This document shows positions 23,663 to 52,188 of a DNA stretch of 64,000 nt, piece after piece. Every line of letters starts with the position of its first letter. The first letter of the stretch is position 1. The position numbers and the translations under genes were made by a program. Origin of the DNA: Sediminibacterium ginsengisoli (GTDB lineage Bacteria > Bacteroidota > Bacteroidia > Chitinophagales > Chitinophagaceae); assembly GCA_945865545.1 (NCBI GenBank), contig CAMBEQ010000006.1:19007-83006 (forward strand), read 5' to 3'. Under the pieces are notes generated by a model. The model made no database searches and was not told the DNA's origin. It saw only the letters and a list, made by a program, of their open reading frames with translations.

Positions 23663-24736
23663 ATGCAATTTCGTAATTTTAAAATGGTCGACTATGTTGT
23701 GTATGGTCGTGGTTCCTTTAATCAAGTAGATGAAATTATTGCACCCCACCGTAAAGGGAATTTCCCAATGATATTTTTTTTAGATCATTTTTTTATTGGC
23801 AAACCACTGGCTAGTAGAATTCCATTAAGAGGGAAGGACAAAATTGTGTATGTAGATGTTACCCATGAGCCTAAAACAAAACAAGTAGATGCCTTGGCTG
23901 CCGAGTTAAAAGCCGAGTTTGGAGAAGTGAGCGGTATAATTGGTATTGGCGGAGGCTCTACCTTAGATTTAACTAAAGCGGTTTCCTTAATGATGATCAA
24001 TCCAGGGTCTTCCGCAGATTACCAAGGTTGGGATTTAGTAAAATTACCTGGTGTATATAAAGTTGGTATACCTACCTTAAGCGGAACGGGTGCTGAAGTT
24101 AGCAGAACTACGGTGCTTACAGGGCCAACGCGTAAATTAGGTATGAACTCCGATTTTACTCCATTCAGTCAAATTGTATTAGATCCTGAATTAACTAAAA
24201 ATGTACCCGCCAATCAGCGTTTTTATACAGGTATGGATTGTTATATACATTGCATTGAAAGTTTAGAAGGAACTTTTTTAAATGAGTTTAGTAAAAGCTA
24301 TGGTGAAAAAGCATTGGACTTGTGTCAAAAAATATTTGTGCATAAAGACAAATGGGATGAAGAATGTGATGAACAATTAATGATGGCTTCCTTTGCAGGC
24401 GGTATGAGTATAGCTTATAGCCAAGTGGGTGTGGCCCATGCAGTAAGTTATGGCCTTAGTTATTTATTAGGAACCAAACATGGCATTGGTAACTGTATTG
24501 TCATGAATCATTTAGAAGAATATTATCCAGCAGGAGTAAAGGAATTTAAATATATGGTGGAGAAAAATAAAATAGAAATTCCAACCGGTATTTGTGCCAA
24601 TTTAACCGAGGAGCAATTTGATACCATGATTAATGTTTCTCTAGGCATGAAACCATTATGGGAAAATGCATTAGGCCCTAATTGGGAAAGCATTATTACG
24701 AAAGAAAAATTGCGCGAACTATACGGGAAGTTGTAA
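23663..24736 (+). CDS. kdnB: Iron-containing alcohol dehydrogenase, KdnB-like 3-deoxy-manno-octulosonate 8-oxidase
   Basis: MQFRNFKMVDYVVYGRGSF, GIGGGSTLDLTKAVSLM, SGTGAEVSRTTVLTGPTRKLGMNSD, FYTGMDCYIHCIESLEGTFLNEFSK, resembling Shewanella KdnB as I remember it. Confidence 0.8.
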   Translation: MQFRNFKMVDYVVYGRGSFNQVDEIIAPHRKGNFPMIFFLDHFFIGKPLASRIPLRGKDKIVYVDVTHEPKTKQVDALAAELKAEFGEVSGIIGIGGGSTLDLTKAVSLMMINPGSSADYQGWDLVKLPGVYKVGIPTLSGTGAEVSRTTVLTGPTRKLGMNSDFTPFSQIVLDPELTKNVPANQRFYTGMDCYIHCIESLEGTFLNEFSKSYGEKALDLCQKIFVHKDKWDEECDEQLMMASFAGGMSIAYSQVGVAHAVSYGLSYLLGTKHGIGNCIVMNHLEEYYPAGVKEFKYMVEKNKIEIPTGICANLTEEQFDTMINVSLGMKPLWENALGPNWESIITKEKLRELYGKL

Positions 24737-25012
24737 AGAATTTATATAACTATTTCGAAAAATTTATAATTTTTTGAATAAATCATAAAAGGGTATTATA
24801 TAAATTCTTTTATTTAATAAATAAGAATTTATATAACTATTTCGAAAAATTTATAATTTTTTGAATAAATCATAAGAGGTTCAATATTTATTTCTTTATT
24901 TTCTAAAAAAGAAATAAATATAACTATTTTAAAAATTAATAATTTTTGAATAAATCATAAGAGGGTATTATATAAATTCTTTTATTTAATAAATAAGAAT
25001 TTATATAATACC
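24736..25012. repeat. Tandem hairpin-repeat array 1 (three units, spacing 85-87 nt)
   Basis: 53-nt exact direct repeat at 24736-24788 and 24823-24875; third diverged copy near 24919-24965; alternating AT-rich inverted repeats at 24796-24836, 24884-24921 and 24964-25012. Confidence 0.9.
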
Positions 25013-25641
25013 TACTCTGCTTCTGCGACTACTTCTTTTACTTCAGGAATCATGCGTTTCATCATGCCTTCAATACCTGCTTTTAAAGTAACCATACTAG
25101 AAGGGCATCCGCTGCAAGAACCTTGCAACATTAAATTAACGATGCCGTCATTATAACTTTTAAATTGTATAGCACCGCCATCCATTTCAACTGCGGGCTT
25201 AACATAATTTTCTAATAATTCTTTTATACGTTTTACCACATCATCGTCATCGGCATGCACGGTGTTGGAAGCTTCTTGTTTTATTTTTGCAACTTCTTCC
25301 TCATTAACAACGACACCACCTGCTTCTAAATATTCTTTCAAAAAAGTTTTAATGGTAGGAATTACATCTTGCCAATCTTCATTTTCAGTGGCCTTGGTGA
25401 GTGTAATAAAATTACTAGCTATAAAAACACTTCTAATAAAGGGGAAACTAAATAATTCTTTTGCCAAAGGAGAGGCGATGGCTAAACTTTCATCAGCTAT
25501 ATCAATACTTTTTCCAGGATACAATAGTTTGTTGGCCACAAACTTCATCGTTTCTGGGTTAGGGGTCATTTCGGTATAAATGCTTACAATGGTATTGCCT
25601 GTGGTAATCATAGTTTCTCTTTTTGGTAGAATTGAAAACAA
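25012..25641 (-). CDS. NifU family (NfuA-like) Fe-S scaffold protein
   Basis: Nfu_N: YTEMTPNPETMKFVANKLLYPGKSIDI; NifU: VKPAVEMDGGAIQFKSYNDGIVNLMLQGSCSGCPSSMVTLKAGIEGMM. Confidence 0.93.
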   Translation of the reverse strand: MFSILPKRETMITTGNTIVSIYTEMTPNPETMKFVANKLLYPGKSIDIADESLAIASPLAKELFSFPFIRSVFIASNFITLTKATENEDWQDVIPTIKTFLKEYLEAGGVVVNEEEVAKIKQEASNTVHADDDDVVKRIKELLENYVKPAVEMDGGAIQFKSYNDGIVNLMLQGSCSGCPSSMVTLKAGIEGMMKRMIPEVKEVVAEAE

Positions 25642-25715
25642 AATTAATCAAAAAGCTTAGGTTGTAACCTGCTTTGGGCTAGTTAATGCTTTATTTTTCC
25701 GATATCGAAAGAAGA

Positions 25716-28067
25716 TTAAGGGACAATGCTCAATTTGGCATAGTTGAGCATGATCTTTTTCTCTCCATTTTTGTCAAAAAGAATCACTGCTATGGGATTG
25801 TGAGCAGATCCTTCAATTTCTTTGATAACGCCAAATCCAAATTTTTGATGCTCAATTTTACAACCGGCTTCTAAGGAAGACGGATCACAAGGAGTAAAAT
25901 TAGCCGAAGGAATATGATTTTTATTGAGGGTATGTGGAGCTACTACTGGTAAATAGCTAGGCTTAGTTCCCTCCGTTTTTTTACTGGTTGTTTTCTCTGG
26001 ATCATTCCAACTTTTATTATTACCGCCATGCATTCTATCGTAAGCAGATCCCCAACCTGAACTTTGGTTGCGAGCACCGCCACCTGAACTTGTTTTGTCA
26101 ATTTGATCCTCTGGCATTTCATCAATAAATCGGCTTGGATCGTTTTGAACCAATTGCCCATATCGATAACGGGTGTTGGCATAAGTAAGCCACAAATGTT
26201 TTTTAGCTCTCGTTACAGCAACATAGAATAATCTTCTTTCTTCTTCTAATTCCTCACGTGTATTAACACTCATACCACTTGGGAATAAAGATTCTTCTAA
26301 GCCTACTAAAAATACACAAGCAAATTCTAATCCTTTTGCTGCGTGAACGGTCATTAATTTTACTGTATCCTCATTGCCTGTATCATTGTCTGCATCGGTA
26401 ATTAAAGTAATTTGTTGTAAGTAAGCGCCTAAACTAATATCACCTAATTCTCCATCTTCATTGCTGGGGCTTTCTGTCCACTCTTTGATAGAGTTTAATA
26501 ATTCTTGAATGTTTTCGTATCGTGCTAATCCTTCTGTTGATTTATCTGTGAATAATTCTTTAACGATGTTAGTATGTTTGCCTACTTGTACCGCTACATC
26601 ATAGGCATTGTGCTTAGTCAATTGATTTTGAAAATACTTAATCATCGTAACAAATTCTTCAATAGCGGTAAGGGTCCCTGCTTTAAATCCAAAACCTTTG
26701 GCTTTTTCTAACACCTCAAAAAAGGTAATATTCTGCTCTCCTGCAATGACCAAACACTTTTCCATGGTGGTTTTGCCAATGCCACGTGCGGGATAATTAA
26801 TGATTCTTTTTAAACCTTCTTCGTCTTTGGTATTGACAATAATGCGCAAATAAGCGATATAATCTTTTATTTCTTTTCTTTGATAAAAACTAAGTCCTCC
26901 ATAAATTTTATAGGCAATACCTGTTCTTCTTAAGCTTTCCTCAAAGGATCTACTTTGTGCATTGGTTCGGTATAAAATTGCGAAGTCTTTATTGTAAAAA
27001 TGATTTCTTAATTTATTTTCTTGAATGGCGTCCGCAATAAATTTTCCTTCATCATTGTCCGTCATGGTACGCACTAATTTTATTTTATCACCCGCTTCAT
27101 TTTCGGTCCATAATTCTTTTGGAATTTGTCCTATATTATTTTTTATGACATGATTGGCAACACCAATGATAGATTGACTGCTTCTATAATTTTGTTCTAA
27201 CTTCACTAACTTTACATCGTCGTAATCTTTTTGAAACTGTAAAATATTCTCAATGGTAGCGCCACGGAAACTATAAATACTTTGCGCATCATCACCTACG
27301 ACACATAAATTTTCATGCACCGCTGCAAGTAGTTTTGCAATTTGATATTGTACGGGATTGGTATCCTGATACTCATCAATGAGTATGTATTTAAATTTAT
27401 GTTGGTATTTATGTAATACTTCTGGGAAATTGTTTAATAGCTCATGCATTTTAAATAATAAGTCATCAAAATCCATAGCGCCATTTTTAAAACATCTTGC
27501 TGCATAACTTGCATAAATTTCTGCAATGGCAGGTCGATTAGATCTTGCATCTTCTTGTTTCAAAAAAGTATCTACTGCATATTCAGAGGGTCCTACTAAT
27601 GCATTTTTGGCAGCAGAAATTCGGTTGTGTACAATATTAGGCTTGTATAATTTATCATCTAAGCCCATATCATTGACCACCGCTTTAATTACTGACCTAG
27701 AGTCTTCGGTATCATAGATGGTAAAGCTTTTAGGATAACCCAATTTATCTCCTTCCGCTCTTAGTATTCTAGCAAACACACTATGAAATGTACCAATGTA
27801 CAAATTGCGTGCGTCTGTATTACCAAGTGCTTTTTCTACACGCTCTTTCATTTCAGCCGCAGCCTTATTCGTAAAAGTGAGTGCCAATATATTAAAAGCG
27901 TCTACTCCACTATGCATCAAATGAGCAACACGCGTGGTTAACACTTTTGTTTTTCCACTACCGGCCCCTGCTATAATCATCAAGGGGCCCTTTAGATGTA
28001 AAACGGCCTCTTTTTGCTTTTCATTTAAACCATTCAAATACGCTTCTTGCATAGGGCGAAGATACAC
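25716..28067 (-). CDS. UvrD/PcrA-type superfamily I DNA helicase
   Basis: LNEKQKEAV, IAGAGSGKTKVLTTR, DEYQDTNPVQY, VVGDDAQSIYSFRGA, TVHAAKGLEF, RRLFYVAVTRAKKHLWL. Confidence 0.97.
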   Translation of the reverse strand: MYLRPMQEAYLNGLNEKQKEAVLHLKGPLMIIAGAGSGKTKVLTTRVAHLMHSGVDAFNILALTFTNKAAAEMKERVEKALGNTDARNLYIGTFHSVFARILRAEGDKLGYPKSFTIYDTEDSRSVIKAVVNDMGLDDKLYKPNIVHNRISAAKNALVGPSEYAVDTFLKQEDARSNRPAIAEIYASYAARCFKNGAMDFDDLLFKMHELLNNFPEVLHKYQHKFKYILIDEYQDTNPVQYQIAKLLAAVHENLCVVGDDAQSIYSFRGATIENILQFQKDYDDVKLVKLEQNYRSSQSIIGVANHVIKNNIGQIPKELWTENEAGDKIKLVRTMTDNDEGKFIADAIQENKLRNHFYNKDFAILYRTNAQSRSFEESLRRTGIAYKIYGGLSFYQRKEIKDYIAYLRIIVNTKDEEGLKRIINYPARGIGKTTMEKCLVIAGEQNITFFEVLEKAKGFGFKAGTLTAIEEFVTMIKYFQNQLTKHNAYDVAVQVGKHTNIVKELFTDKSTEGLARYENIQELLNSIKEWTESPSNEDGELGDISLGAYLQQITLITDADNDTGNEDTVKLMTVHAAKGLEFACVFLVGLEESLFPSGMSVNTREELEEERRLFYVAVTRAKKHLWLTYANTRYRYGQLVQNDPSRFIDEMPEDQIDKTSSGGGARNQSSGWGSAYDRMHGGNNKSWNDPEKTTSKKTEGTKPSYLPVVAPHTLNKNHIPSANFTPCDPSSLEAGCKIEHQKFGFGVIKEIEGSAHNPIAVILFDKNGEKKIMLNYAKLSIVP

Positions 28068-28132
28068 TCCAAATGCTTGATTATAATTGCTGGTGGAAAA
28101 CTATAAGACGAAAAAATAAAAATTATTTAAAT

Positions 28133-28189
28133 AAAAAGCCCCCCGAAAATTCGAGGGGCTTTTTAAAATAGGGAAAAACTATTTTAAAA
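28133..28189 (-). terminator. Terminator hairpin preceded by an AT hairpin, downstream of the ompA-like gene
   Basis: aaaaagcccc-ccgaaaattcga-ggggcttttt (28133-28164), adjacent to ttttaaaatag-ggaaaaa-ctattttaaaa (28161-28189). Confidence 0.85.
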
Positions 28190-28210
28190 TCTATAGTTTA
28201 ATTGTACCAA

Positions 28211-29101
28211 CTACTTTTTTTCAAGTAATTGAAAGAACTGATCTAATTGAGGAAGAATAACAATTCTTGTTCTACGATTAGCTGCTCTGTTATCAGGTGT
28301 ATCATTTTCTGTTAAAGGAATGTACTCACTTCTTCCAGCTGCAGTCATACGCTTAGGATCAATACCATAAGTTTCTTGTAATATACGAACTATCGTAGTG
28401 GCACGCTTAACACTTAAATCCCAGTTGTCTTCCATTAGGTTGCCTGAACTAATAATTTGCTTAGAATCTGTATGGCCTTCTACCATAAATTCAATATTTG
28501 GTTGTGCAGCCAATACCTTAGCCACTTTTCCTAATACTACTTTAGCTTTATCTGTTATACTAAAGCTGCCACTTTTAAATAATAATTTATCTGAAATATC
28601 TACATAAACTACTCCCTTATCTACTTTAACATTGATGTCTCCATCATTCAAATCCCCAATGGCTCCTTTCAAGTTCATTACCAAATTCATATTGATAGAA
28701 TCTTTACGTGCCATAGAGCTTTGTAAGCCTTGAATGTATAAATCCTTAGCTCCAATATTGTCTAATGACTTTTTAATACTTTCAGCTTGAGCACCTGTTA
28801 CAACAGACATGTCTTTCAATTGGCTTAAAACCACATTGTTATTTGATCTTAAAAATTCAACTTGTTTGTTTAAATCATCAATGGTTGATTGTAATGACTT
28901 TGTTTTATCGCTTGCTTTTTCTGCATCCGACTTGCTTTTTGTAATAGCATCTTGTGCGTCACGATACTTTCCTTGTAATTCTGCATAAGCACCATTTAAT
29001 TGTCCAAATTTGGTTTCTGCCTCTTGTAATTTTTTAGGACTTACACAAGAATAAGCACCTAAGCTAATAACAGCAAGTGCTAAAAAAATTTTACTTTTCA
29101 T
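28211..29101 (-). CDS. OmpA family lipoprotein
   Basis: Lipobox-like AYSC, coiled-coil region, C-terminal OmpA domain (VEGHTDSK...NRAANRRTRIVILP). Confidence 0.92.
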   Translation of the reverse strand: MKSKIFLALAVISLGAYSCVSPKKLQEAETKFGQLNGAYAELQGKYRDAQDAITKSKSDAEKASDKTKSLQSTIDDLNKQVEFLRSNNNVVLSQLKDMSVVTGAQAESIKKSLDNIGAKDLYIQGLQSSMARKDSINMNLVMNLKGAIGDLNDGDINVKVDKGVVYVDISDKLLFKSGSFSITDKAKVVLGKVAKVLAAQPNIEFMVEGHTDSKQIISSGNLMEDNWDLSVKRATTIVRILQETYGIDPKRMTAAGRSEYIPLTENDTPDNRAANRRTRIVILPQLDQFFQLLEKK

Positions 29102-29194
29102 TTTTTTTCTTTTTAATTTATATTAAACATCACCAGTGAGTTGTAAAAATACAAATATTGCTTAAAAAGTTAAACAATATTTTGTTAAAGCACC

Positions 29195-29758
29195 TCAGCT
29201 TTCTATGTCTTCGGTAATCCCTAAATTAGGTATATATCCTTGAAAATCCTTAAAAAATTGGACAATTTTAAACTTATCAGCCTTTTCGTCGTCAGAAACA
29301 AAAAAGGGCTCAGCAAAAACCACTTTGCGACTTTTAAAATCAAGACCCACCATCACTATAGGGACATTGGCATTTTTGGCAATATGATAAAAGCCCGACC
29401 GAAGCTTGGTCACTTTTTTACGGGTTCCTTCTGGAGATAAAGCCAAATGAAAACGCAGCTTTTTATTAAATAGAGCTACCACCTGGTCCACCATATTGTG
29501 CTGCTGCCGCCGGTCCACCGGATAGGCGCCTAAATACCTCATTAACCATCCAAGTGGAGGCCAAAAAAGTTCACTTTTCCCTAAAAAATGTACAAATTCA
29601 AAATGCATTTTTTTACGAATAGCTAATCCTACAAAAAAATCAAAACTATGTGTATGCGGTGCTACTATAATAATAGACTTAGGCAATTCAAAGTGAAATT
29701 TTCCTTCAATTCTCCAACCTCGAATATTAAATAACCACCAAGCTAGTAATTGTTGCAT
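29195..29758 (-). CDS. 1-acyl-sn-glycerol-3-phosphate acyltransferase
   Basis: APHTHSFDFFVG and LSPEGTRKK motifs. Confidence 0.88.
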   Translation of the reverse strand: MQQLLAWWLFNIRGWRIEGKFHFELPKSIIIVAPHTHSFDFFVGLAIRKKMHFEFVHFLGKSELFWPPLGWLMRYLGAYPVDRRQQHNMVDQVVALFNKKLRFHLALSPEGTRKKVTKLRSGFYHIAKNANVPIVMVGLDFKSRKVVFAEPFFVSDDEKADKFKIVQFFKDFQGYIPNLGITEDIES

Positions 29759-29812
29759 AAATTATAAAACTAAAGTTAATGAAAAATTTCAATTCTTAAT
29801 TAATGAGCTACA

Positions 29813-30871
29813 TCACTTATTGAGCTGTTCAATTAACCCTGCATTCAATAAGGGGTCTACTTTTTCAGAAATAATCGGAATTAATTCTATTTTAGGTAAG
29901 GGCTCTTTATTTACATTTTTTTCATACCACTTATCATAGTACTTTAATAAAATAAAAAAGGCCTCTTTGAATTCTCCTTCTATAATATGATTGATAGCGG
30001 TTTTGGTTTCTAGCCCACCCAATCTTTTTTGAATTCTTAAAGTAGCATTCATTAAACTTTGCTTGTCAAATTTTCCATATCCTTCTAAAATAAAATTAAG
30101 CCTTTCTTCAAATGGGATGGTTAAAAAATAACACGTACTATTTCTCATTAAATGAAATAAAGGTGTCGGGATTAAAACGGTTCCAATTCTTTGGCTTTCA
30201 TCTTCAATCCAAATAGGGCCATTATTTTTATTTTGTTCAAGAAGTGAATGAGCTAAACTATTTTCAAACATTTCTTGACTGGGTTGAATGGCTTGTCCAA
30301 TGGCTCCATAGGCAGATCCTTTATGATGTGCCAAGCCCTCTAAATCAATAACGCTATATTTTCTTTTTTGCAATTCTTGTAAAATTTCTGTCTTACCCGA
30401 ACCAGTATAACCACCTAAAACTTTACAGGCATAAGGGATATTAAATTGTGCTAACACCCAATTTCTATAAGCTTTATAACCCCCAGTAAGTTGTATCACT
30501 TTATAGCCATATACATCTAATAACCAGGCTACTGCTGCACTGCGCATACCGCCTCTCCAACAATGAATGTAAATGGTTGGCTTGGCTGAAGCATTGTTTT
30601 TTTGTTTTTCACTCATCCAAGATTCTACTGTTTCAATCATACTAAGCATTTTGTTTCCAAAAAGAGGCAGCCCTGCTTTGATAGCTGCTTCCCTGCTTTG
30701 TTTTTTATAAGTAGTACCAATAATAGCACGCTCTTCATTGGTAAATAAAGGAAGATTTTGAGCACTAGGTATGTGCGCATGATCATATTCTGCTGGGCTT
30801 CTTACATCAATAATGATGCCTGTAGCTGCTTGAATGATAAAATCCTCGATATTAATTTTTTGTACAGCCAT
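29813..30871 (-). CDS. mnmH: tRNA 2-selenouridine synthase
   Basis: Rhodanese IDVRSPAEYDHAHIP and HCWRGGMRSAAVAWLL, then P-loop GGYTGSGKTEIL. Confidence 0.95.
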   Translation of the reverse strand: MAVQKINIEDFIIQAATGIIIDVRSPAEYDHAHIPSAQNLPLFTNEERAIIGTTYKKQSREAAIKAGLPLFGNKMLSMIETVESWMSEKQKNNASAKPTIYIHCWRGGMRSAAVAWLLDVYGYKVIQLTGGYKAYRNWVLAQFNIPYACKVLGGYTGSGKTEILQELQKRKYSVIDLEGLAHHKGSAYGAIGQAIQPSQEMFENSLAHSLLEQNKNNGPIWIEDESQRIGTVLIPTPLFHLMRNSTCYFLTIPFEERLNFILEGYGKFDKQSLMNATLRIQKRLGGLETKTAINHIIEGEFKEAFFILLKYYDKWYEKNVNKEPLPKIELIPIISEKVDPLLNAGLIEQLNK

Positions 30872-30872
30872 A

Positions 30873-31967
30873 CTATAAAGTTAATCGCTTTATGGCAGCT
30901 TCAAGCGCTTCTGTAGAAAATGCTGAAAAGGGAGGCTGTTTAAAATTAAAACGACTTGCTTCTTCTAAAGCTACTTTCAAATTAAAATTTTCTTGATTAA
31001 AACATAGTGCCCAATTTTTTTCTTGCCATAAATTTCCTAAATACAATTGCTCTGTTTGACCTGGCGTAGGAATAAAAATTAATTTTTTTCCAAAGGGGAT
31101 CAGTTCCATCAGCGTGGTATACCCTCCTCTACAAATAATATATTCTGCATTTTGTATTTCTTTCACTAATTCAGTCGCTGCTAAATGCGGATAAATGATA
31201 GACCTAGCTGTTTGTTGATAAGCTTTATTATTATTAGGCGTCCCTGCAATAAGAACAAAAGACAGCTTTAATTCATTGCCCATTTTCCATAATAAATTTT
31301 CTAATAAAGTTCTTTGTGGTTCAGGCCCCGACACGATGCCTAAAAAAATGTTGGTAGAATTAGTTGTAATAGCATTATTTTTGGCTGCTTCCATTAATCT
31401 AGATAAGCAACCCATATACCATATAGGAATGGCCGGCTTATGGGGAGGATTTGATAAAATGCCTGATAAATTATCGTTACCGGCGATATCTGGAATCCAA
31501 CAAGCAGAAAATCGATTTAACCATGCATATACTAATTTTTGAAATAATCTTGTTGCCCATGTAAAATGCATTTGTAAATTTAACTGATGGGTAATAAATA
31601 CAGAGGGAACTTGCTGATGATAAAAACCAAAACGATTGTCTGAAATAATTAAATCAAATTGAAATTGTTGCTGCGCCTTCTTTAGCCAGTAGTATTCGTA
31701 AACAATACTGTAAATAATTTTAGGAACTTGGGTTAATAAAATTATAGGAAGCACATAGCCCCTTTTAGCATATTTGATTCTATAGCCCCTTAAGTTTAAA
31801 AAAGTAGCCGTAGGGAGGGCTTCTTTTAAAATAGTTTCATGATTTTTTTCAGTAGCAATATATACCTCATAGCCTAGGGCTTGTAATGATTTGATGAGGG
31901 TAATACACCTTGTGGCGTGTCCCAAACCCCAATCAATGGGTGAAATACAAACGGAAGGCTTTTTCAT
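30873..31967 (-). CDS. GT-B fold glycosyltransferase
   Basis: SPIDWGLGHATRCITLIKSLQALGYEVYIATE and IICRGGYTTLMELIPFGKKLIFIPTPGQTEQ. Confidence 0.85.
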   Translation of the reverse strand: MKKPSVCISPIDWGLGHATRCITLIKSLQALGYEVYIATEKNHETILKEALPTATFLNLRGYRIKYAKRGYVLPIILLTQVPKIIYSIVYEYYWLKKAQQQFQFDLIISDNRFGFYHQQVPSVFITHQLNLQMHFTWATRLFQKLVYAWLNRFSACWIPDIAGNDNLSGILSNPPHKPAIPIWYMGCLSRLMEAAKNNAITTNSTNIFLGIVSGPEPQRTLLENLLWKMGNELKLSFVLIAGTPNNNKAYQQTARSIIYPHLAATELVKEIQNAEYIICRGGYTTLMELIPFGKKLIFIPTPGQTEQLYLGNLWQEKNWALCFNQENFNLKVALEEASRFNFKQPPFSAFSTEALEAAIKRLTL

Positions 31968-32037
31968 AAAGTGCTAATTTAATCAATATTATACATGTTT
32001 AAAACTGTAAATTTGATTTAGGATTAAAACTACCCCA

Positions 32038-33306
32038 ATGCCTTTATTTACAAAAGATAAATCTATTGCTTTATATGCCGCATTGGTTTCTTTTGGTACC
32101 TATGTTTTTGTTTTTGGATTTAGAAAATCTTTTACTGTTTGCACTTTTGATGGATTAACTTTTGGCCCTATTGCTTATAAAACAGCATTGGTGATAAGTC
32201 AAATGTTAGGGTATCTATTGGCCAAGTTTTATGGTATTAAATTTATTTCAGGCCTACAGAAGGTAAATCGGTATAAAATTATTTTTTTATTAACTGGAAT
32301 TTCTTGGTTCGCTTGGTTGTTATTTGCTATTGTTCCAGCGCCCTATAATGTAGTTTTTTTGTTTTTAAATGGATTTCCTTTAGGCATGTTGTGGGGGATT
32401 GTTTTTTCTTATGTGGAAGGGCGAAAGAGTACCGATTTCATTGGAGCCGCTTTAGCCGTGAGTTTTATTTTTGCTTCGGGTTGGGTAAAATCGGTAGGCG
32501 CTTGGTTAATGGCAGAATATTCTATTACCCAATTTTGGGTTCCTTTTTGTACAGGATTGGTTTTTGCGTTACCACTTATTATATGTGTATATGGTTTAGA
32601 AAAAATACCAGCTCCTTCTGAAGAAGACGAGTTATTAAGAACTAAGCGTATCCCAATGACGGGCACGGATAGAAAAAAGTTATTGAAACAATACTTACCA
32701 GGCATTATTGCCTTTGTAGTTATTTATTTATTTGCCACTATATTTAGAGATATCCGAGATAATTTTTCTGCTGATATGTGGAAGGAGATGGGTTATACAT
32801 CGAGCCCTTCTATATTTACACAAACTGAAACCCCTATTACTATTTTTATTTTAATAATTATGGGCGCTGTGGTGCTGATTAAAAATAGTTTTAAAGCATT
32901 AATGGTGGCCCATGTTTTTATTTTAATTGGATTTATAGTAGCAGGTGTTTCTACGTATTATTTTTCCTATCATTTATTAACTCCTTTTTGGTGGATGATT
33001 TGGGTGGGCCTTGGTTTGTACTTGGTCTATATTCCCTTTAATTCAATTTTCTTCGATCGATTGATTGCTGCATTTTCTATGAAAGGCAACGCTGGCTTCT
33101 TTATATATGTTGCGGATTCGGTGGGTTATGTAGGAAGCGTAACGGTAATGCTAGCTAAAGAGGGCATGAGCTTACAAATTAAATGGACGCAATTTTTTTC
33201 ACAAAGTGTAATGATCCTTTCTCTAGTGGGAATATTCATTACCCTATATGCAATGTATTATTTTTCAAAAAAACATAAGGCAACTCAAGCCATTGCTTCT
33301 TTTTAA
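32038..33306 (+). CDS. DUF5690 family multi-pass membrane protein (MFS-like)
   Basis: Multi-TM protein; GTYVFVFGFRKSFTVCTFDG N-terminus recalled as DUF5690. Confidence 0.7.
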   Translation: MPLFTKDKSIALYAALVSFGTYVFVFGFRKSFTVCTFDGLTFGPIAYKTALVISQMLGYLLAKFYGIKFISGLQKVNRYKIIFLLTGISWFAWLLFAIVPAPYNVVFLFLNGFPLGMLWGIVFSYVEGRKSTDFIGAALAVSFIFASGWVKSVGAWLMAEYSITQFWVPFCTGLVFALPLIICVYGLEKIPAPSEEDELLRTKRIPMTGTDRKKLLKQYLPGIIAFVVIYLFATIFRDIRDNFSADMWKEMGYTSSPSIFTQTETPITIFILIIMGAVVLIKNSFKALMVAHVFILIGFIVAGVSTYYFSYHLLTPFWWMIWVGLGLYLVYIPFNSIFFDRLIAAFSMKGNAGFFIYVADSVGYVGSVTVMLAKEGMSLQIKWTQFFSQSVMILSLVGIFITLYAMYYFSKKHKATQAIASF

Positions 33307-33327
33307 GCATCTAATGATACAACCTTT

Positions 33328-34542: not shown

Positions 34543-34553
34543 TGTTTGCAAAA

Positions 34554-42101: not shown

Positions 42102-42118
42102 TAAGCAAATAGAAAAGA

Positions 42119-42952: not shown

Positions 42953-42969
42953 TTCATTAATAATAGTAA

Positions 42970-43665
42970 ATGCAAGAAATAAATTCACAGAAGCCTATTA
43001 TTGGCGCCGATAACAATTCCTTAATTGCATTAATCTCTATAAATTTAGTGGTATATGCATTCATTGGTTTTTTGAAAGTAGTGTATTATTTAAGTAGTTA
43101 TCCCTTAGAGCAGTTTTATGCGCAAGTAGTTAACCCCACCATTTTATTTTCCAATTTTCAACTGGTACTTCATCAACCCTGGAGTTTATTTACGTACAAT
43201 TGGGTCCATAATGGATTTTGGATTTTATTAAATAACATGATATGGCTCACTGCTTTCGGATTGGTATTGCAATTGTCCAATGCCAACAAGCACTTATTCC
43301 CCATTTATTTTTATAGTGGATTAATTTCAGGGCTTGTATTTTGTTTTGTAGGGGCTAGTGTTCCTCTAATGGGGGCAGGCATTAGTGTTATGGCTATTGT
43401 AGTAGCTGCAGTGGTGCTACAACCACAATATCGATTATTAGAAAATTTAGGAGGTGGAATACCCTTATGGATATTGGGTTTGGTTTATTTTGTAATTCAA
43501 GGTTTTTCCTTAATGCATGCAGAATGGCCTATTATTATTGTCAGTTTCGTTGGTGCAGTAACAGGAGCCTTATATATTTTGTTATTAAAAAAAGGGTTTG
43601 ATATAGGAAAGTGGATGCATCAACTATTACATTTGTTAAACAATAGCCTGGCCCCTAAAAAATAA
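42970..43665 (+). CDS. Rhomboid-like protein lacking catalytic Ser/His motifs
   Basis: Tandem with the active copy; MGAGISVMAIV replaces GASGAVFGI, and no WAHVGG motif (WPIIIVSFVGAVTGAL instead). Confidence 0.8.
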   Translation: MQEINSQKPIIGADNNSLIALISINLVVYAFIGFLKVVYYLSSYPLEQFYAQVVNPTILFSNFQLVLHQPWSLFTYNWVHNGFWILLNNMIWLTAFGLVLQLSNANKHLFPIYFYSGLISGLVFCFVGASVPLMGAGISVMAIVVAAVVLQPQYRLLENLGGGIPLWILGLVYFVIQGFSLMHAEWPIIIVSFVGAVTGALYILLLKKGFDIGKWMHQLLHLLNNSLAPKK

Positions 43666-43677
43666 TTCCAATATCTA

Positions 43678-44790
43678 ATGGCAAAAAAATCAAGAATAAG
43701 AAATTTAGGAAAGCGCATCTTATTCTTAATTAATCTGTTGGTTACCTTATTATTTTTGTACCCAACTTTTTTTACGCCCATCTCTTTAATTTGGATCAAT
43801 GGTTTTTTAGGATTGATGGCGCCTTATTTATTGGCTATTGAAATTTTATTATTAATCATTTGGCTAATAGCCAAGCCGATGGTTTCTTTATTTCCATTAG
43901 TAACATTAGCTATAGGATGGAAAACTTGTTTGGTTTTATTTGCATGGCATCCTGGCATTCCATTTTCTCAGAAAAAGAAAGAGAATACTTTAAGAATTAT
44001 TAGTTGGAACGTAAAAGGATTTAATGGAATGGGTGTGAATACCAATTTAAAATTACGTACACAAGAAATAGCTTATTCTATACAAAAATGGGATCCGGAT
44101 ATTGTTTGTTTACAAGAATATAATACCAATGAACGTCCTAATGATATAGCCAATCACTCAGTTTACTTTACAAAAAAATTACCTTATTATTTTTTTTCAA
44201 AAGATTTTCAGACCATCGAAAAAGATTATTATGCGGGCTGTATCGTTTTTTCTAAATATAAAATCATACATGCGGAACGTGTTGGCTTTTTGAATCAAGA
44301 AAGTCTCCTCTCAGTAACTATTTTAAAAGGAGATGATACCATTCAGGTTTTCACTACCCATTTGGCTTCTTATAGGTTTAAAGCAAATGATTACGAAGCC
44401 ATTGAAGAGCCCGCTTTTTCTAGTACAATGGCTTTAACTGCCAATCGCGGGGTGCTCCGAAAATTGCGCAATTCCTTTGTAGAAAGAGCGGTACAAGCAG
44501 AAATCGTTCAGCATCATTTATCAAAAAGTCCTTATCCAAGCATTATCACAGGCGATTTCAATGATGTGCCTAGTTCTTATACTTATCATACCATCAAAGG
44601 AAATTGGCAGGATGCTTTTTTAGCAAAAGGCTTTGGTATAGGGGCGACCTATTTAGGCATATCACCTACTTTAAGAATTGATTATATTTTAGCCAATGAT
44701 GCCTGGGAAGTAAAGGCCTGGGAGTCGATGGATGAAAATTTAAGCGACCACCATATGATCATGGCCGACTTACTTTTAAAGAAGAATTAA
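43678..44790 (+). CDS. Endonuclease/exonuclease/phosphatase family protein
   Basis: RIISWNVKGFNGM, PDIVCLQEYN, ITGDFNDVPSSY, RIDYILAND, SDHHMIMADL. Confidence 0.93.
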   Translation: MAKKSRIRNLGKRILFLINLLVTLLFLYPTFFTPISLIWINGFLGLMAPYLLAIEILLLIIWLIAKPMVSLFPLVTLAIGWKTCLVLFAWHPGIPFSQKKKENTLRIISWNVKGFNGMGVNTNLKLRTQEIAYSIQKWDPDIVCLQEYNTNERPNDIANHSVYFTKKLPYYFFSKDFQTIEKDYYAGCIVFSKYKIIHAERVGFLNQESLLSVTILKGDDTIQVFTTHLASYRFKANDYEAIEEPAFSSTMALTANRGVLRKLRNSFVERAVQAEIVQHHLSKSPYPSIITGDFNDVPSSYTYHTIKGNWQDAFLAKGFGIGATYLGISPTLRIDYILANDAWEVKAWESMDENLSDHHMIMADLLLKKN

Positions 44791-44833
44791 CCTAGTTTAT
44801 TTAAAATAAAATATCTTTGAGCCAATACTCATT

Positions 44834-46339
44834 ATGGCACTCAAAATATACAATTCGCTTACTAGACAAAAAGAAGTTTTCGAACCCATCAATGCACCAT
44901 ATGTTGGTATGTATGTTTGTGGCCCTACAGTAAGTGGTGAAAGTCATTTAGGGCATGCAAGACCCTTTATCACCTTTGATGTATTGTATCGTTATTTATT
45001 ACATCTTGGTTATAAAGTTAGGTATGTAAGAAATATTACCGATGCAGGTCACTTTGAAGAAGAAGGGAAAGTGGCGGAAGACAAGATTGCCAGTAAAGCT
45101 ATTTTAGAAAAGTTAGAACCCATGGAGTTGGTTCAAAAGTATACGCATTTGTATCATTGGGCCATGGATCAATTTAATAATTTACCGCCTAGTATAGAAC
45201 CTACTGCTACGGGCCATATTATTGAACAAATAGAAATGATCAAAAAAATAATGACAGATGGCTTTGCCTATGAAGCCAATGGGTCGGTTTATTTTGATGT
45301 AATTAAATACAATGAAGTGTATTCTAAAAAGAATCAACCTTATGGAATATTAAGCGGGCGTAATTTGGAAGATCAATTAGACACCACGCGTGAATTAGAC
45401 AATCAAGACGAGAAAAAAAATAAAGTAGATTTTGCTTTATGGAAAAAAGCGCCTGTTGAACACATTATGCGTTGGCAAAGTCCATGGGGCGAAGGCTTTC
45501 CGGGCTGGCATATTGAATGCTCTGCCATGGCCACAAAATATTTAGGAAAAAAATTTGATATACATGGTGGTGGAATGGATTTGCAATTTCCACATCATGA
45601 GTGTGAGATAGCACAAAGTACAGTTTGCAATCATGAACTGCCAGCACGTTATTGGGTGCATAATAATATGATTACCATTAACGGACGAAAAATGGGAAAG
45701 AGTTATAACAATGTGGTGAAGTTAAGTGAGCTATTCGATGGCAGTCATCTAATTTTAACACAGGCCTATAGTCCTATGACGGTTCGATTTTTTATTTTAC
45801 AAAGTCAATACCGCGGTACGCTCGATTTTAGCAATGAAGCTTTACAGGCGTCTGAAAAAGCACTACGCCGTTTAATGGATGCGTATGAATGGTTAAAAGC
45901 TCAAAGTTTTACTAGTGAAAAAAAATCAACCGATACTTCTTTAGACCAACAACTAAAAACATGGGTAAATGAATTACCTGAGTTTATGGAAGATGATTTA
46001 AATACGGCGAAGGTAGTGGCTAATTTATTTGAAATGGTCCCAGTGATCAATTCTCTTAAGGACAAACATATTTCTGCAGAGGCTGTATCAGGAGCTACCT
46101 GGCAATTGGTACAAGCGCAGCTTACTTTATTTATAGAGCAAGTGCTTGGAATAAAAGTAGAATCTGGCGCCAATAAAAAACAATTAAATGGGGTCATTCA
46201 TTTATTAATTGATATTCGTAAAGAAGCAAAAGCAAAGAAAGATTTTGCCACCAGCGATAAAATTCGCAATCAATTATTGGAAATGGGTATTCAGATAAAA
46301 GACGAAAAGGACGGAGAGGTAAGTTTTACTTTTTCTTAA
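44834..46339 (+). CDS. cysS: Cysteinyl-tRNA synthetase
   Basis: [62 protein letters not shown]. Confidence 0.98.
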
Positions 46340-46360
46340 TCTACTAATTTAATTCTATTC

Positions 46361-46756
46361 TTAAGAGTGATCACAATCGTCTTCATGGGCATGATTGTGG
46401 ACGCGACAGCGTAGGTGATTGGAAACATGTGCAAATATGATTAAAAAGGCAGCAGGGAAAAGCAACCAAATTTCTATAGACCTAAATACCATTCTACTTA
46501 ACATGATAAGAATACCCAAGGAAAACAATAGTATGGGTGTATAAGAATGATGATGTTTTTTGTACCCATGGTATAAAGAATAAGCACCTATTGCAAAAGA
46601 AAGTAAAATCATCCCTAGTTCAAATTGGGTATTGTGTAATATATTTATTCCCATTAAAGGCAAACTGCTAAAAAATAAAGGCAATAGTGCGCAATGTATG
46701 GCACAAGCCAATGAAGCTCCAATACCAATGGCGTCCCAATTCCATTTTTTAAACAT
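46361..46756 (-). CDS. MerC domain-containing membrane protein with His-rich C-terminus
   Basis: DAIGIGASLACAIHCALLPLFFSSLPLMG, C-terminal HNHAHEDDCDHS. Start taken at MFKKWNW. Confidence 0.88.
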   Translation of the reverse strand: MFKKWNWDAIGIGASLACAIHCALLPLFFSSLPLMGINILHNTQFELGMILLSFAIGAYSLYHGYKKHHHSYTPILLFSLGILIMLSRMVFRSIEIWLLFPAAFLIIFAHVSNHLRCRVHNHAHEDDCDHS

Positions 46757-46768
46757 AGTGCAAAGGTA
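46757..46768 (-). promoter_or_regulatory. Putative -7 element TACCTTTG four nt upstream of merC-like ATG
   Basis: Minus strand reads TACCTTTG-CACT-ATG. Confidence 0.5.
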
Positions 46769-46839
46769 ATCCAAATACTAGCAAGAAAATAATATTACCT
46801 TTGGGGGGTATTTATAGGACTAATTAAATTTTTCTTTTT

Positions 46840-47451
46840 ATGTCAAAAAAACTGGGGGTTTATTTGTTATTTTTTGCCTTATTGTTGGCAGGCTTTTATT
46901 ATTTTTTATTTAAAGGGACCGATAATTGGAAAGTACAATTACCCGTTTTAAGCTATGTGCAACCTTTTCACTTTACCAATCAGGATGGAAATAGTTTTAC
47001 TGATAAAGAGCTCTTAAATAAAATAACGGTAGTGGAATATTTTTTCACTACTTGTAAAGGTATTTGCCCCAAATTAAATACCAATATGAAAGACATTTAT
47101 GCTATTTATAAAAATGATGCCGATTTTCAAATTGTCTCCCATACTTGTAATCCTAGTACAGACTCGGTTCCCGTACTAAAAAAATATGCCGATTCCTTAG
47201 GAGTCGATACAAAAAAATGGATTTTTTTAACAGGTAGAAAAGATAGTTTATACCAAATGGCCAGAGGCTCTTATTTGTTAGACGACCCTAAAAACAATGT
47301 TGAAAAAATAGAGGATCAGTTTATTCATACCCAATTTTTCGCATTAGTAGATAGAAAAGGAAAAGTAAGAGGAAAAATTTATGATGGGTTGAAATCATTA
47401 GAAATTGAGCAATTAAAACAAGACATTGCTAAATTATTAAAAGATAAATAA
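46840..47451 (+). CDS. SCO1/SenC family protein
   Basis: TVVEYFFTTCKGICPKLNTNM (CxxxC) and FIHTQFFALVDRKGKVRGKIYDG. Confidence 0.93.
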   Translation: MSKKLGVYLLFFALLLAGFYYFLFKGTDNWKVQLPVLSYVQPFHFTNQDGNSFTDKELLNKITVVEYFFTTCKGICPKLNTNMKDIYAIYKNDADFQIVSHTCNPSTDSVPVLKKYADSLGVDTKKWIFLTGRKDSLYQMARGSYLLDDPKNNVEKIEDQFIHTQFFALVDRKGKVRGKIYDGLKSLEIEQLKQDIAKLLKDK

Positions 47452-47458
47452 CAACTAC

Positions 47459-48436
47459 ATGATATTTGTTACAGGGGCTAGCGGTTTAGTAGGATCTCAT
47501 CTAATACAATCATTAGTTGCTAAAGAAAAAAAAGTAACCGCTTTGTATAGAAAGCAAATTCCTCAATTTGATGGCGCCGATAAAGTGCATTGGATCCAAG
47601 GAGATCTATTAGACATTGTGTCTTTAGAACAAGCCATGGAGGGCATACATCAAGTATATCATTGTGCTGCCATTGTTTCTTTTGTGCCAAGTCAAAGTGC
47701 GCGCATGTTAAAAGCCAATCAGGAGGGTACGGCCAATGTGGTCAATATTTGTATCGAGAAAAAAATTAATAAATTGATCTTTGTCAGTTCCGTTGCTGCC
47801 TTGGGTCGTATTAGGGAAGATGCTCCAATAGATGAAAGCATGAGCTGGACACCCGCTACTAGTAATAGTGTCTATGGTCAATCTAAATATTTAGCCGAAA
47901 TGGAAGTATGGCGAGGCATGGCAGAGGGATTAAATGTAGCGATTGTGAATCCTGTAATCATTTTTGGTGCTGGTGATTGGACTAAAGGGTCTTCAGAAAT
48001 TTTTAAATCGGCTTATGACCAATTTCCTTGGTATACTAATGGAGTAAGTGGCTTTGTAGATGTATTAGATGTAATTGATGCGATGCAGTTATTAATGGAT
48101 AGCACTATTACTGGACAACGTTATGTGATTAGTGCAGAAAATTTAAGTTATCAAACTGTTTTTACTAAAATAGCGCAGGCATTTAATAAACGACCTCCTC
48201 ATAGAAAAGTAACGCCTTTATTGGCAGCTATTGTATGGAGATTAGAAGCTATAAAAGGAATCCTTACCCGCAAAACGCCTTTACTTACGAAAGAGACAGC
48301 GGCTACAGCCCAAGCGGTGGTTCATTTTAATAATGATAAATTTTTAAAAGCCTTTCCCGATTTTAAATATCGTACGTTGGAAACTACTATTGTTAGGGTG
48401 TGTAAGGAATTAAAAAAATTACATCAACTAGCCTAG
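47459..48436 (+). CDS. NAD-dependent epimerase/dehydratase family protein
   Basis: IFVTGASGLVGSHLIQSL; YGQSKYLAEMEVW (YxxxK). Confidence 0.93.
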   Translation: MIFVTGASGLVGSHLIQSLVAKEKKVTALYRKQIPQFDGADKVHWIQGDLLDIVSLEQAMEGIHQVYHCAAIVSFVPSQSARMLKANQEGTANVVNICIEKKINKLIFVSSVAALGRIREDAPIDESMSWTPATSNSVYGQSKYLAEMEVWRGMAEGLNVAIVNPVIIFGAGDWTKGSSEIFKSAYDQFPWYTNGVSGFVDVLDVIDAMQLLMDSTITGQRYVISAENLSYQTVFTKIAQAFNKRPPHRKVTPLLAAIVWRLEAIKGILTRKTPLLTKETAATAQAVVHFNNDKFLKAFPDFKYRTLETTIVRVCKELKKLHQLA

Positions 48437-48472
48437 TTCATTAAGTGATGAATTGAATAAGGGATATAAAAT

Positions 48473-49417
48473 TTATTCCATCATTTTTTTCCAAAGTTCA
48501 GGAATGCGTTTAATCCAAACCAGTTCCCTTCTTTTAATACCGGCTTCTTCTGCAGGAAAGCCCATGTATACTTTATTGCCTTCTAAACTTCCCACCACCC
48601 CAGCTCTTCCAAGCAAGGTAGCATTCTCCCCAATGGTTAAGGTTTTACCCACTCCCACTTGTCCCCAAAGGGTTACTCCCGATTTTATTTTAACGCCACC
48701 GGCAACACCTACTTGAGCAGCAAATAAACAATTGGCTTCAATTTGAGTGTCATGTCCAATATGTACCATATTGTCCATTTTAGTACCCATACCAATAATG
48801 GTATCACCACTAACCCCTTTGTCAATGGTACAATTAGCCCCTATTTCTACCTTATCTTCTATAATAACCCTACCGCAACTAGGCATTTTCTTATACCAAG
48901 CCGGCCTATTCTTTTTTGTATTATAATAAAAGGCATCACTTCCAATGACGGTCCCTGCTTGAATGATTACTTCATCTCCTATAATGGTATCTGCTAGTAG
49001 GGTAACATTAGGGTAAATCAAACAGTTTTTACCAATGCTTACATTGGCCCCAATAAAAACACGAGGCATAATGATGGTACCTGCACCAATAAGGGCATCC
49101 TTACTTATTGCTTGATCATTTAATTGTAAAGGTTTAAAATGCTGTACAATTTTTGAATAAGCTTCAAAGGGGTCGGCACAAAATAATAAAGCCTTCCCTG
49201 CAGGAACGCTAACTTCTTTATTATTGATAATGATACAGCTTGCAGCACTATTTAAACAAGTTTCATAATATTTAGGATGATCAACAAAAACAATATCGCC
49301 CATTTCCACTTGATGAATTTCATTCACTCCAGTAATTTCTAACTGATTATTACCTATAATTTCTGACTCAGTGAAAGTAGATAACCATTGTACCGAAATA
49401 GGTGCAGGGAGCTTCAT
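48473..49417 (-). CDS. UDP-3-O-(3-hydroxymyristoyl)glucosamine N-acyltransferase-like (LpxD family)
   Basis: Hexapeptide repeats (VFIGANVSIGKNCLIYPNVTLLADTIIGDEVIIQAGTVIGSDAF, MVHIGHDTQIEANCLFAAQVGVAG). Confidence 0.88.
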   Translation of the reverse strand: MKLPAPISVQWLSTFTESEIIGNNQLEITGVNEIHQVEMGDIVFVDHPKYYETCLNSAASCIIINNKEVSVPAGKALLFCADPFEAYSKIVQHFKPLQLNDQAISKDALIGAGTIIMPRVFIGANVSIGKNCLIYPNVTLLADTIIGDEVIIQAGTVIGSDAFYYNTKKNRPAWYKKMPSCGRVIIEDKVEIGANCTIDKGVSGDTIIGMGTKMDNMVHIGHDTQIEANCLFAAQVGVAGGVKIKSGVTLWGQVGVGKTLTIGENATLLGRAGVVGSLEGNKVYMGFPAEEAGIKRRELVWIKRIPELWKKMME

Positions 49418-49680
49418 ATGTATGTTTTTGGCCTAAATCAAAGGTAACGAGGGTTTTTTGTAAAAAAATCTTTTTACCCATTTTCTCTATAAAAAAAGGG
49501 GTTATCGATTGCAAATAAGTGCATTTCATTACAATTAAATTTATCTAATATAAAAAACGATTCATTTCTGTAATCCTTTATCCATCAATGTTACAAGCGT
49601 TTAATTAAAAATAAAGTAAAAAAAATATTTTATTTATTTCAATAAAATCACCTTCTAATATATTTTTTTAAAATTGACTT

Positions 49681-49714
49681 TTTGGTCTAATTGTGGATAA
49701 CGTCAATAAATTTG
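49681..49714 (+). promoter_or_regulatory. Putative TTTG-N22-TAAATTTG promoter with a DnaA-box-like 9-mer in the spacer
   Basis: TTTG 49681-49684, TAAATTTG 49707-49714; TGTGGATAA (reverse complement of TTATCCACA) at 49692-49700. Confidence 0.45.
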
Positions 49715-49761
49715 TTTAAAATATTTTTTGAATTAGAAAAAAGTATATTTAATATTGTGAA

Positions 49762-49840
49762 GGGAATCTAATTCCCGTACTTACTAACCCATCTATATAC
49801 GAGGTCCTCTTGAGCATTCAGGGGGACTTTGTTTTTATAG
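49762..49840 (+). ncRNA. Candidate terminator-capped leader/small RNA upstream of the RluE-like gene
   Basis: GGGAAT-cta-ATTCCC (49762-49776), then AGGTCCTCTTGA-gcat-TCAGGGGGACTT (49802-49829) followed by a T-rich tract (ttgttttt). Confidence 0.5.
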
Positions 49841-50436
49841 AAACTTTTATTTTTATCAACTACTATTTAATATATAAACCATTTCAGGTGTTAAGTCAAT
49901 TTACCAGTCCCGATGGAAAATTATGCTTAAAAGATATGATGGAGGTACCTAATGATGTTTATCCAGTAGGTCGATTAGATTATGATAGTGAGGGTTTACT
50001 CTTATTAACGAATGATACCAAAATCAATCATCAATTACTAGCGCCACAATTTGAACATAAAAGAATTTATTGGGTTCAAGTTGAAGGAATGATTAATAAC
50101 GAAGCCATTGCAATGCTTACACAAGGCGTAACTATTAATAATAACGGTATCGTATTTAAAACCAAGCCTGCGCGTGTTGCCCTATTAGAAGACGATATAG
50201 CAGTACCTGAGCGAAAACCCCCTATTCGCTTTAGAAAAAACATTCCCACTTCTTGGGTACAGATACAACTAACAGAAGGCAAGAATAGACAGGTAAGAAA
50301 AATGTTTGCATCGGTTCATTTCCCCGTATTGCGCTTGATACGGGCTCAAATAGGGAAATTTACCATTGAGGGCATGCAACCTGGAGATTTAATTACATTA
50401 AGTAATGAGGCGGTTCATGAAGGCTTCTTTCGTTAA
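49810..50436 (+). CDS. RluE/RsuA-family pseudouridine synthase (true start unclear)
   Basis: YKPFQVLSQFTSPDG, YPVGRLDYDSEGLLLLTND, QLTEGKNRQVRKMFA. The only ATG/GTG/TTG candidate upstream of the domain is a TTG inside a terminator-like hairpin. Confidence 0.85.
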   Translation: MSIQGDFVFIETFIFINYYLIYKPFQVLSQFTSPDGKLCLKDMMEVPNDVYPVGRLDYDSEGLLLLTNDTKINHQLLAPQFEHKRIYWVQVEGMINNEAIAMLTQGVTINNNGIVFKTKPARVALLEDDIAVPERKPPIRFRKNIPTSWVQIQLTEGKNRQVRKMFASVHFPVLRLIRAQIGKFTIEGMQPGDLITLSNEAVHEGFFR

Positions 50437-50478
50437 TTGACTGCTAAGTTTTACTTTTGCACTAATAATATATTATCA

Positions 50479-52002
50479 ATGAGTCAATCGCTATCAGAAC
50501 AAGAAATTATAAGACGTGAAAAATTAGCCCAATTAGAGGCAGCGGGCATCAATCCTTACCCGGCCCCTTTATATCCAGTTTCTCATTATTCTAACGATAT
50601 CAAGCAAAATTTTACCGAAGAAAATAAAGATCAATATGCAGCAGTATGTGTAGCCGGAAGAATTATGAGTGTGAATGATAAGGGTAAAGTACTATTTGTT
50701 AAAATACAGGACGACAAGGGCATTCTTCAATTATATATAAAGAGAGATGAAATTTGTCCTGATGAAGACAAATCCTATTGGGAGGTCATTACAAAAAACG
50801 CAATGGACTTGGGCGATATTATTGGTTCTACTGGGTATGTATTTATCACTAAAACAGGAGAGATATCTTTACATTCTAGCACGCTCACATTATTGGCGAA
50901 ATCTTTAAAACCACTTCCTGTGGTGAAGAGAGACGATGAGGGCCATGTATTTGATGCAGTTACCGACCCTGAATTTAGATACCGCCAACGCTATGCCGAC
51001 TTAATTATTAATCCATCGGTTAAAGAAACTTTTGTAAAGCGCACTTTATTAATAGCCACCATTCGTGATTTTTTAAATAGTCATGGGGCTTTAGAAGTAG
51101 ATACACCGGTGTTGCAAGCTATACCGGGTGGGGCAGCTGCAAGGCCTTTTACTACACATCACAATGCATTGGATGTACCTTTTTATTTGCGTATCGCCAA
51201 TGAATTGTATTTAAAAAGATTAATAGTAGGTGGCTTTGAGTGGGTATATGAGTTTAGTAGAAATTTTAGAAATGAGGGAATGGATCGTACCCATAATCCA
51301 GAGTTTACCGTTTTGGAATGGTACACAGCGTATAAAGATTATTTATGGATGATGGAAATAACAGAACAGCTTGTTGAAAAAATTGCATTGACCTTGCATG
51401 GTACTACCGAATTAACCGTAGGCGATAAAACCATTAATTTTAAAGCTCCATTTAGACGCATTAGTATTATAGAAGCCATACAAGAAAATACTGGTATTGA
51501 TATCACGGGTATGGAAGAAGCCGCCTTAAGAGAGGTTTGTAAGAAATTACATATTGATGTGGCGCCTACCATTGGAAAAGGAAAGTTGATTGATGAAATA
51601 TTTGGAGCTACCAGCGAACCTAAATACATCCAGCCTACTTTTATTATTGATTATCCAATTGAAATGAGCCCGTTAACCAAGAAGCACCGTAGCAAAGCAG
51701 GATTGGTAGAAAGATTTGAACTAATGGTCAATGGTAAAGAATTGGCCAATGCCTATACCGAGTTAAATGATCCTATCGATCAACGCAAGCGATTTGAGGA
51801 CCAGGTTGCTTTAATGGAAAGAGGAGATGATGAAGCCATGTTTATAGACCATGACTTTTTAAGAGCTCTAGAATATGGCATGCCACCTACTTCAGGCATT
51901 GGTATTGGAATAGACCGCTTATGTATGATGATGTTGAATCAACCCTCTATACAAGATGTGTTGTTCTTCCCGCAAATGCGCCCCGAGAACACAAATGAGT
52001 AA
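50479..52002 (+). CDS. lysS: Lysyl-tRNA synthetase, class II
   Basis: EIIRREKLAQLEAAGINPYP, FEWVYEFSRNFRNEGMDRTHNPEFTVLEWY, GIGIGIDRLCMMM. Start taken at MSQSLSE. Confidence 0.97.
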   Translation: MSQSLSEQEIIRREKLAQLEAAGINPYPAPLYPVSHYSNDIKQNFTEENKDQYAAVCVAGRIMSVNDKGKVLFVKIQDDKGILQLYIKRDEICPDEDKSYWEVITKNAMDLGDIIGSTGYVFITKTGEISLHSSTLTLLAKSLKPLPVVKRDDEGHVFDAVTDPEFRYRQRYADLIINPSVKETFVKRTLLIATIRDFLNSHGALEVDTPVLQAIPGGAAARPFTTHHNALDVPFYLRIANELYLKRLIVGGFEWVYEFSRNFRNEGMDRTHNPEFTVLEWYTAYKDYLWMMEITEQLVEKIALTLHGTTELTVGDKTINFKAPFRRISIIEAIQENTGIDITGMEEAALREVCKKLHIDVAPTIGKGKLIDEIFGATSEPKYIQPTFIIDYPIEMSPLTKKHRSKAGLVERFELMVNGKELANAYTELNDPIDQRKRFEDQVALMERGDDEAMFIDHDFLRALEYGMPPTSGIGIGIDRLCMMMLNQPSIQDVLFFPQMRPENTNE

Positions 52003-52014
52003 GTGCTAAAATAA

Positions 52015-52188
52015 CAAGGCACCCGTTTATGGGTTGCCTTGAAAAAATCATAAGATAAAATTAAAGAGATTCATTCATTTTTATAATGAATCTCTTTAAT
52101 AACGCACCCGTTTATGGGTTGCCTTGAAAAAATCATAAGAGTTAATAAAATAGAATCATTATTATTTTTAATGATTCTATTTTATTAA
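52015..52188. repeat. Tandem hairpin-repeat array 2 (two units, spacing 85 nt)
   Basis: 37-nt exact direct repeat gcacccgtttatgggttgccttgaaaaaatcataaga at 52019-52055 and 52104-52140. Each copy is followed by a different perfect inverted repeat (52060-52100, 16-bp arms; 52142-52188, 19-bp arms), both with 9-nt loops. Confidence 0.92.

Follow-up and report, generated by a model that had tools for sequence, protein, structure and literature searches.

Two gaps between convergent genes in the window (the whole 64,000-nt stretch of Sediminibacterium ginsengisoli DNA that was analysed) are filled by tandem arrays of hairpins, and they raise the question of what these hairpins are and to which genes they belong. 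On the usual view, a hairpin and a T-tract are enough to make a bacterial 3′ end.

Anatomy of the two arrays

The arrays lie at positions 24736-25012 and 52012-52188 and consist of three and two units, respectively, each made of a hairpin (A), a linker and a palindrome (B). The units are spaced by 87 and 85 nt in the first array and by 85 nt in the second, and the A–linker–B order was kept in 5/5 units. At up to two mismatches, the pattern TTGAAWAAATCATAAGA was found five times in the window against 0.29 matches expected; one unit (24774-24790) deviates and ends in ...CATAAAA. The constant linker core is AAATCATWAGAG. A reading of the same DNA made from the letters only (the sequence-only reading) had described the linker as starting with TTGAA(T/A); a constant linker was indeed found, but TTGAA is a variable part of hairpin A.

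The first array separates the gene of an Fe-containing alcohol dehydrogenase (23663-24736, plus strand; PF00465) from a NifU-like gene (25012-25641, minus strand; PF08712 and PF01106), and all of its parts were assigned to the minus strand. Directly at the stop of the dehydrogenase gene lies an isolated B half-palindrome (AAGAATTTATATAA, 24735-24749); it is complementary to 24796-24810 and, judging from this match, is a remnant of an outer unit. Unit 1 contains hairpin A (TTCGAAAAATTTATAATTTTTTGAA, 24754-24778, seen in the sequence and in the tandem-repeat result), a linker with one change relative to the core (AAATCATAAAAG, 24780-24791; pattern match, with a covariance model match at 24777-24840) and palindrome B (24796-24836), whose arms (24796-24809 and 24823-24836) are 100% complementary. 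In unit 2, hairpin A (24841-24865) is followed by the linker AAATCATAAGAG (24867-24878; pattern match, model match 24864-24925) and by a palindrome B (24884-24921) with 94% complementary arms. Unit 3 has an imperfect, AT-only hairpin A (24929-24950), hairpin A being nearly all AT in this array, the same linker AAATCATAAGAG (24952-24963; pattern match, model match 24949-25012) and a palindrome B (24964-25012) that extends to the NifU stop codon, with 100% complementary arms at 24964-24981 and 24995-25012.

The second array, also on the minus strand, lies between the genes of lysyl-tRNA synthetase (50437-52002, plus strand; PF00152) and an M20 peptidase (52190-53728, minus strand; PF01546 and PF07687). 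Its outer unit comprises hairpin A (52016-52040), with the minus-strand loop CCCATAAACGGG, the linker AAATCATAAGAT (52045-52056; pattern match, model match 52042-52103) and a palindrome B (52060-52100) with 16-nt arms that are 100% complementary. The gene-proximal unit comprises hairpin A (52101-52125), the linker AAATCATAAGAG (52130-52141; pattern match, model match 52127-52188) and a palindrome B (52142-52188) with a perfect 20-bp stem (arms 52142-52161 and 52169-52188), which adjoins the stop of the peptidase gene.

Further copies from relatives in the genus were used to read the anatomy. The distance from the linker to the centre of B hardly varies (about −24 ± 1 nt), and B has a conserved loop, approximately nnnRAAAWnT. 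Some species carry the linker and A without B, and others the linker and B without A. A known structured RNA class had also been suggested; Rfam 15 gave no match in the window, and a permissive search of six loci gave only matches below the gathering scores. A simple terminator scan did not call the two arrays. Elsewhere in the window, a short tandem repeat with a 15-nt unit (AATGATGGCATCTTG, 1.9 copies) is located at 62819-62847.

Distribution, polarity and conservation

Sequence patterns and a covariance model built on B plus the linker were used to search the own genome, an assembly of 2.26 Mb in 66 contigs that is 92% complete. The genome-wide linker scan, which the sequence-only reading had proposed, gave 15 exact copies of the core and 0 of the reversed control pattern; a few of the 15 are coding accidents and the remainder lie between hairpins, with flanking palindromes at nearly all non-coding matches. 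The covariance model gave 23 matches at E values up to 1. The claim that the two arrays form one repeat family was thus upheld. At a stricter threshold, the model detected the module in 35 of the 61 genomes of the genus. All 35 are of at most 2.3 Mb, and 0/20 genomes of at least 2.5 Mb were positive. Across the order, 2/249 genomes matched, both from the same genus. When matches were scanned by name, almost all came from Sediminibacterium, Chitinophagaceae or freshwater Bacteroidetes assemblies, and the few in other phyla look like chance matches, which suggests that the module belongs to a small-genome, freshwater Sediminibacterium-like clade. Literature searches yielded nothing specific on this element.

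About 20 genes per carrier genome end with the module, and across carriers about 25 gene families carry it. These families include B12-dependent ribonucleotide reductase (RNR), peroxiredoxin, sucC, rplT, NifU, M20 peptidase, lysS and thiolase, as well as EF-P, isocitrate dehydrogenase, aconitase, carB and transketolase (outside the window, gene names were read from C-terminal sequences and not from a database match). Several species of the genus also have another short hairpin repeat, ATCAGNNGCNNTCGCNNCTTCTYCCC, whose stem varies but stays paired (L008, 1602-1627; L274, 1402-1427; L310, 704-729, minus strand; L346, 1292-1317, minus strand); it is absent from the window.

The owner of a module is the gene that has its stop codon next to B. 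Within a non-redundant set of 131 elements, 89 lie within 75 nt of the stop of a sense gene (median 44), a criterion satisfied by 8% of random positions, and 21 more are outer units of tandem arrays; B runs with its 5′ arm into the stop codon or the last codons at 55 of these 89. Followed in the direction of the owner gene, the stop is succeeded by hairpin B, then by CTCTWATGATTT at a median of 44 nt past the stop, and last by hairpin A and the T-tract. Since the gene on the B side owns the module, both window arrays belong to minus-strand genes, NifU and M20 peptidase, and the reading direction proposed earlier, with the short hairpin first, has to be reversed. Placement in a stop-to-stop convergent gap, also proposed earlier, applies to both arrays but is not a general rule, given that 63 of 95 intergenic matches were convergent and 27 co-directional.

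Runs of at least four T followed hairpin A in 59% of cases in the gene direction and in 30% in the opposite direction, against a background of 11%. Hairpin A is thus a stem-loop followed by a T-tract after the stop, as in a Rho-independent terminator. No T-tract excess was found for hairpin B (21% and 8%, against the same background), which in this respect does not look like a Rho-independent terminator. Of the functions that had been suggested at the outset, modular bidirectional terminators came nearest to this evidence, with the reservation that the T-tract of A mostly follows the orientation of the B-side gene.

Loci of the B12-dependent RNR gene were fetched by protein and not by linker, so that retrieval was unbiased. 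The module was present in 22 of 30 clade genomes, and an ordinary terminator stood in the other 8. The linker was exact in 11 of the 22 modules, had one change in 9 and was worse in 2. The stems differed (GCGAA/TTCGC, GTGAA/TTCAC, GGAAA/TTTCC, GAGCA/TGCTC) and changed block-wise on both sides. At the RNR gene of 20 element-free relatives the linker was absent, and mostly a single ordinary T-tailed hairpin was found instead. Covariation in the initial model alignment carried a bias from selection for pairing; in the RNR set, which was retrieved by protein but aligned to the covariance model, the covariation score was 0.80, compared with 0.27 after shuffling and 0.40 after sliding by one column, and 13 of 14 pairs had changes on both sides. 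These values bear out the earlier proposal that hairpins unrelated in sequence yet still paired reflect selection on structure. Near-identical orthologues showed mostly single-sided changes and more distant ones mostly double changes; one-sided changes thus came first and two-sided ones later, as expected of stepwise compensation. The same genes bear the module in many species, with the stems rewritten but compensated and the linker kept.

The gap between the M20 peptidase gene and lysS was compared across about 45 species. Element-free species had one bidirectional hairpin or almost no gap, and clade members had zero to three modules in either orientation, so that either convergent gene may own one; some of these modules had degenerated, as in CTCTGATGATTT, ATCTAATGATTT and half hairpins. 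The proximal B of the own genome (52142-52188) holds AATCATTA in its 5′ arm, a sequence that is the opposite-orientation linker in a close relative (G074, locus L268). This correspondence makes it seem that the proximal B arose out of local sequence, as if its 3′ arm were a fold-back copy. Re-creation of stems by template switching (PMC8794818) was hinted at by this one case, own genome against G074, and was ruled against by the order of one-sided and two-sided changes in orthologue pairs. Local tandem duplication is clear at L160. In the tandem arrays at L028 (own genome, contig C21, ∼38.6-38.8 kb) and L104, one B copy is often chimeric, its two arms coming from different copies that meet at the loop, which is identical in both; this suggests recombination or slippage within arrays.

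Candidate explanations

The explanation that we prefer, and to which we give about an even chance of being correct, is a composite 3′-end or terminator module with a factor-binding linker, maintained by the host and inherited vertically in the small-genome Sediminibacterium-like clade. Read in gene direction, the transcript would contain the stop, the long hairpin B with its perfect stem (the stop codon is often part of it), the 12-nt word CUCUWAUGAUUU, and hairpin A with a U-tract. Hairpin A and the U-tract would end transcription; hairpin B would cap and protect the mRNA body and, in convergent pairs, block read-through from the opposite side; and the linker would be a putative recognition site for an endonuclease cut, an RNA-binding protein or a DNA-bound factor. 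More specifically, and only tentatively, a putative lineage-specific factor (a protein or endonuclease) might read CUCUWAUGAUUU between freely evolving hairpins and so set the 3′ ends or the stability of about 20 mRNAs in each genome, mostly from housekeeping genes, which would make the module a previously undescribed factor-dependent 3′ end.

Among the alternatives, a non-autonomous mobile repeat that inserts behind stops, moved by an enzyme other than a Y1 transposase or reverse transcriptase, with arrays as by-products and hairpins drifting with compensation, is possible though doubtful. It would account for the linker, the B loop and often the A loop CCCATAAACGGG being identical at about 25 unrelated genes, for modules that were gained, lost or turned round in the gap between M20 and lysS, and for the absence from related large genomes. 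It is opposed by the locus-specific stems, by the strict position behind stops and by the linker constraint at fixed orthologous sites, which a selfish copy would not need. The Y1 transposase family PF01797 and the reverse transcriptase family PF00078 (RVT_1) were each found in 0/35 element-bearing genomes of the genus, and PF01797 in none of the proteins of the own genome, the tnpA_REP search proposed earlier. PF01797 occurred in 12 of the 61 genus genomes and PF00078 in five, all of them element-free. Mobilisation by RAYT/Y1 was rejected since Y1 and the element are mutually exclusive across the genus, and the earlier suggestions of REP/BIME elements spread by a Y1 (RAYT-type) transposase and of IS200/IS605-derived ends fall with it; a reverse-transcriptase origin was rejected because RVT_1 occurs only in element-free genomes. 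Within the genus, only large-genome members have Y1 transposases and reverse transcriptases, and only small-genome ones have the module. Loss of SbcCD as the reason for the long palindromes was also considered and discarded: full-score SbcD was found in 3/61 genus genomes, with no correlation.

Less probable still is a DNA-level, BIME-like site at gene ends, acting through extruded hairpins or through a nucleoid, gyrase or replication protein bound at the linker. The stems are nearly pure Watson–Crick: over the 131 elements, B contained 56 G.U and 61 A.C wobbles, without the G.U excess expected for a gene-strand RNA helix. Isolated mismatches leaned to A.C in a filtered count (p 0.01-0.16), and a first, small count had leaned to A.C on the gene strand, although the larger one was symmetric. 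Without a G.U excess, action as gene-strand RNA, on both strands or as DNA is in each case compatible with the counts. Two thirds of the elements lie at convergent ends, where supercoils collide, which would also suit such a site. Against it, the orientation of the elements is tied to the stop codon of one gene, they occur in co-directional places as well, and the T-tract of hairpin A is polar.

It is very improbable that these are ordinary terminators whose linker arose by chance or by local duplication, even though relatives have single ordinary terminators in the same places and tandem duplication clearly occurs (L160), because the genome-wide excess (15 core matches against 0, and model matches in 35/61 genus genomes) and the conservation of the linker at orthologous sites despite rewritten stems already contradict this reading.

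Throughout a whole clade, the same housekeeping genes (RNR, NifU, EF-P, aconitase, isocitrate dehydrogenase, succinyl-CoA ligase and L20) are followed by two hairpins with one fixed word kept between them. If a factor reads this word, it would be a new signal for gene ends, originating inside a single genus among the members with small genomes, and the element-free sister species would serve as natural controls. The set of modules also offers clean data on the evolution of long perfect stems.

Comparison with known systems

REP/BIME elements with RAYT transposases served as the reference system (PMC2817692, PMC3733652). Like them, the module forms extragenic tandem hairpin–linker–hairpin arrays of short palindromes at gene 3′ ends, in dispersed copies, and the ability of inter-REP sequence to bind protein was counted as a further likeness (PMC2817692, PMC3733652). 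Unlike them, its stem sequence varies between loci and the linker is the constant part; it has no GTAG or related tag and about 23 copies instead of more than 100, its carriers have no Y1/RAYT gene, and it is vertically kept at orthologous genes. The CGTC-tagged palindromic repeats, known also from Bacteroidetes, are likewise palindromes without a dedicated transposase, but the module stems were seen without the CGTC tag, and the conserved part is a 12-nt word between hairpins (PMC3733652).

With Rho-independent and bidirectional terminators, including those formed by DNA uptake sequences (PMC1852404), the module shares a hairpin and T-tract past the stop and a fixed short word. It differs from Rho-independent terminators in the second long hairpin, without a T-tract, ahead of the terminator, and from DNA-uptake-sequence terminators in that the word lies outside the stems and has about 20 copies (15 exact cores in the own genome) where DNA uptake sequences have approximately at least 1000 per genome. 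RNase E-type processing sites in 3′-UTRs are also similar in sequence: Salmonella RNase E follows an RNWUU rule, and the linker GAUUU, single-stranded between stable hairpins and near the stop, fits it (PMC5222698). The module word is a fixed 12-mer, unlike those sites, and RNase E-like cleavage at GAUUU may be taken as a lead only, drawn from the likeness of the letters. In its working, the module resembles a terminator/BIME hybrid, but it falls outside the REP/BIME family.
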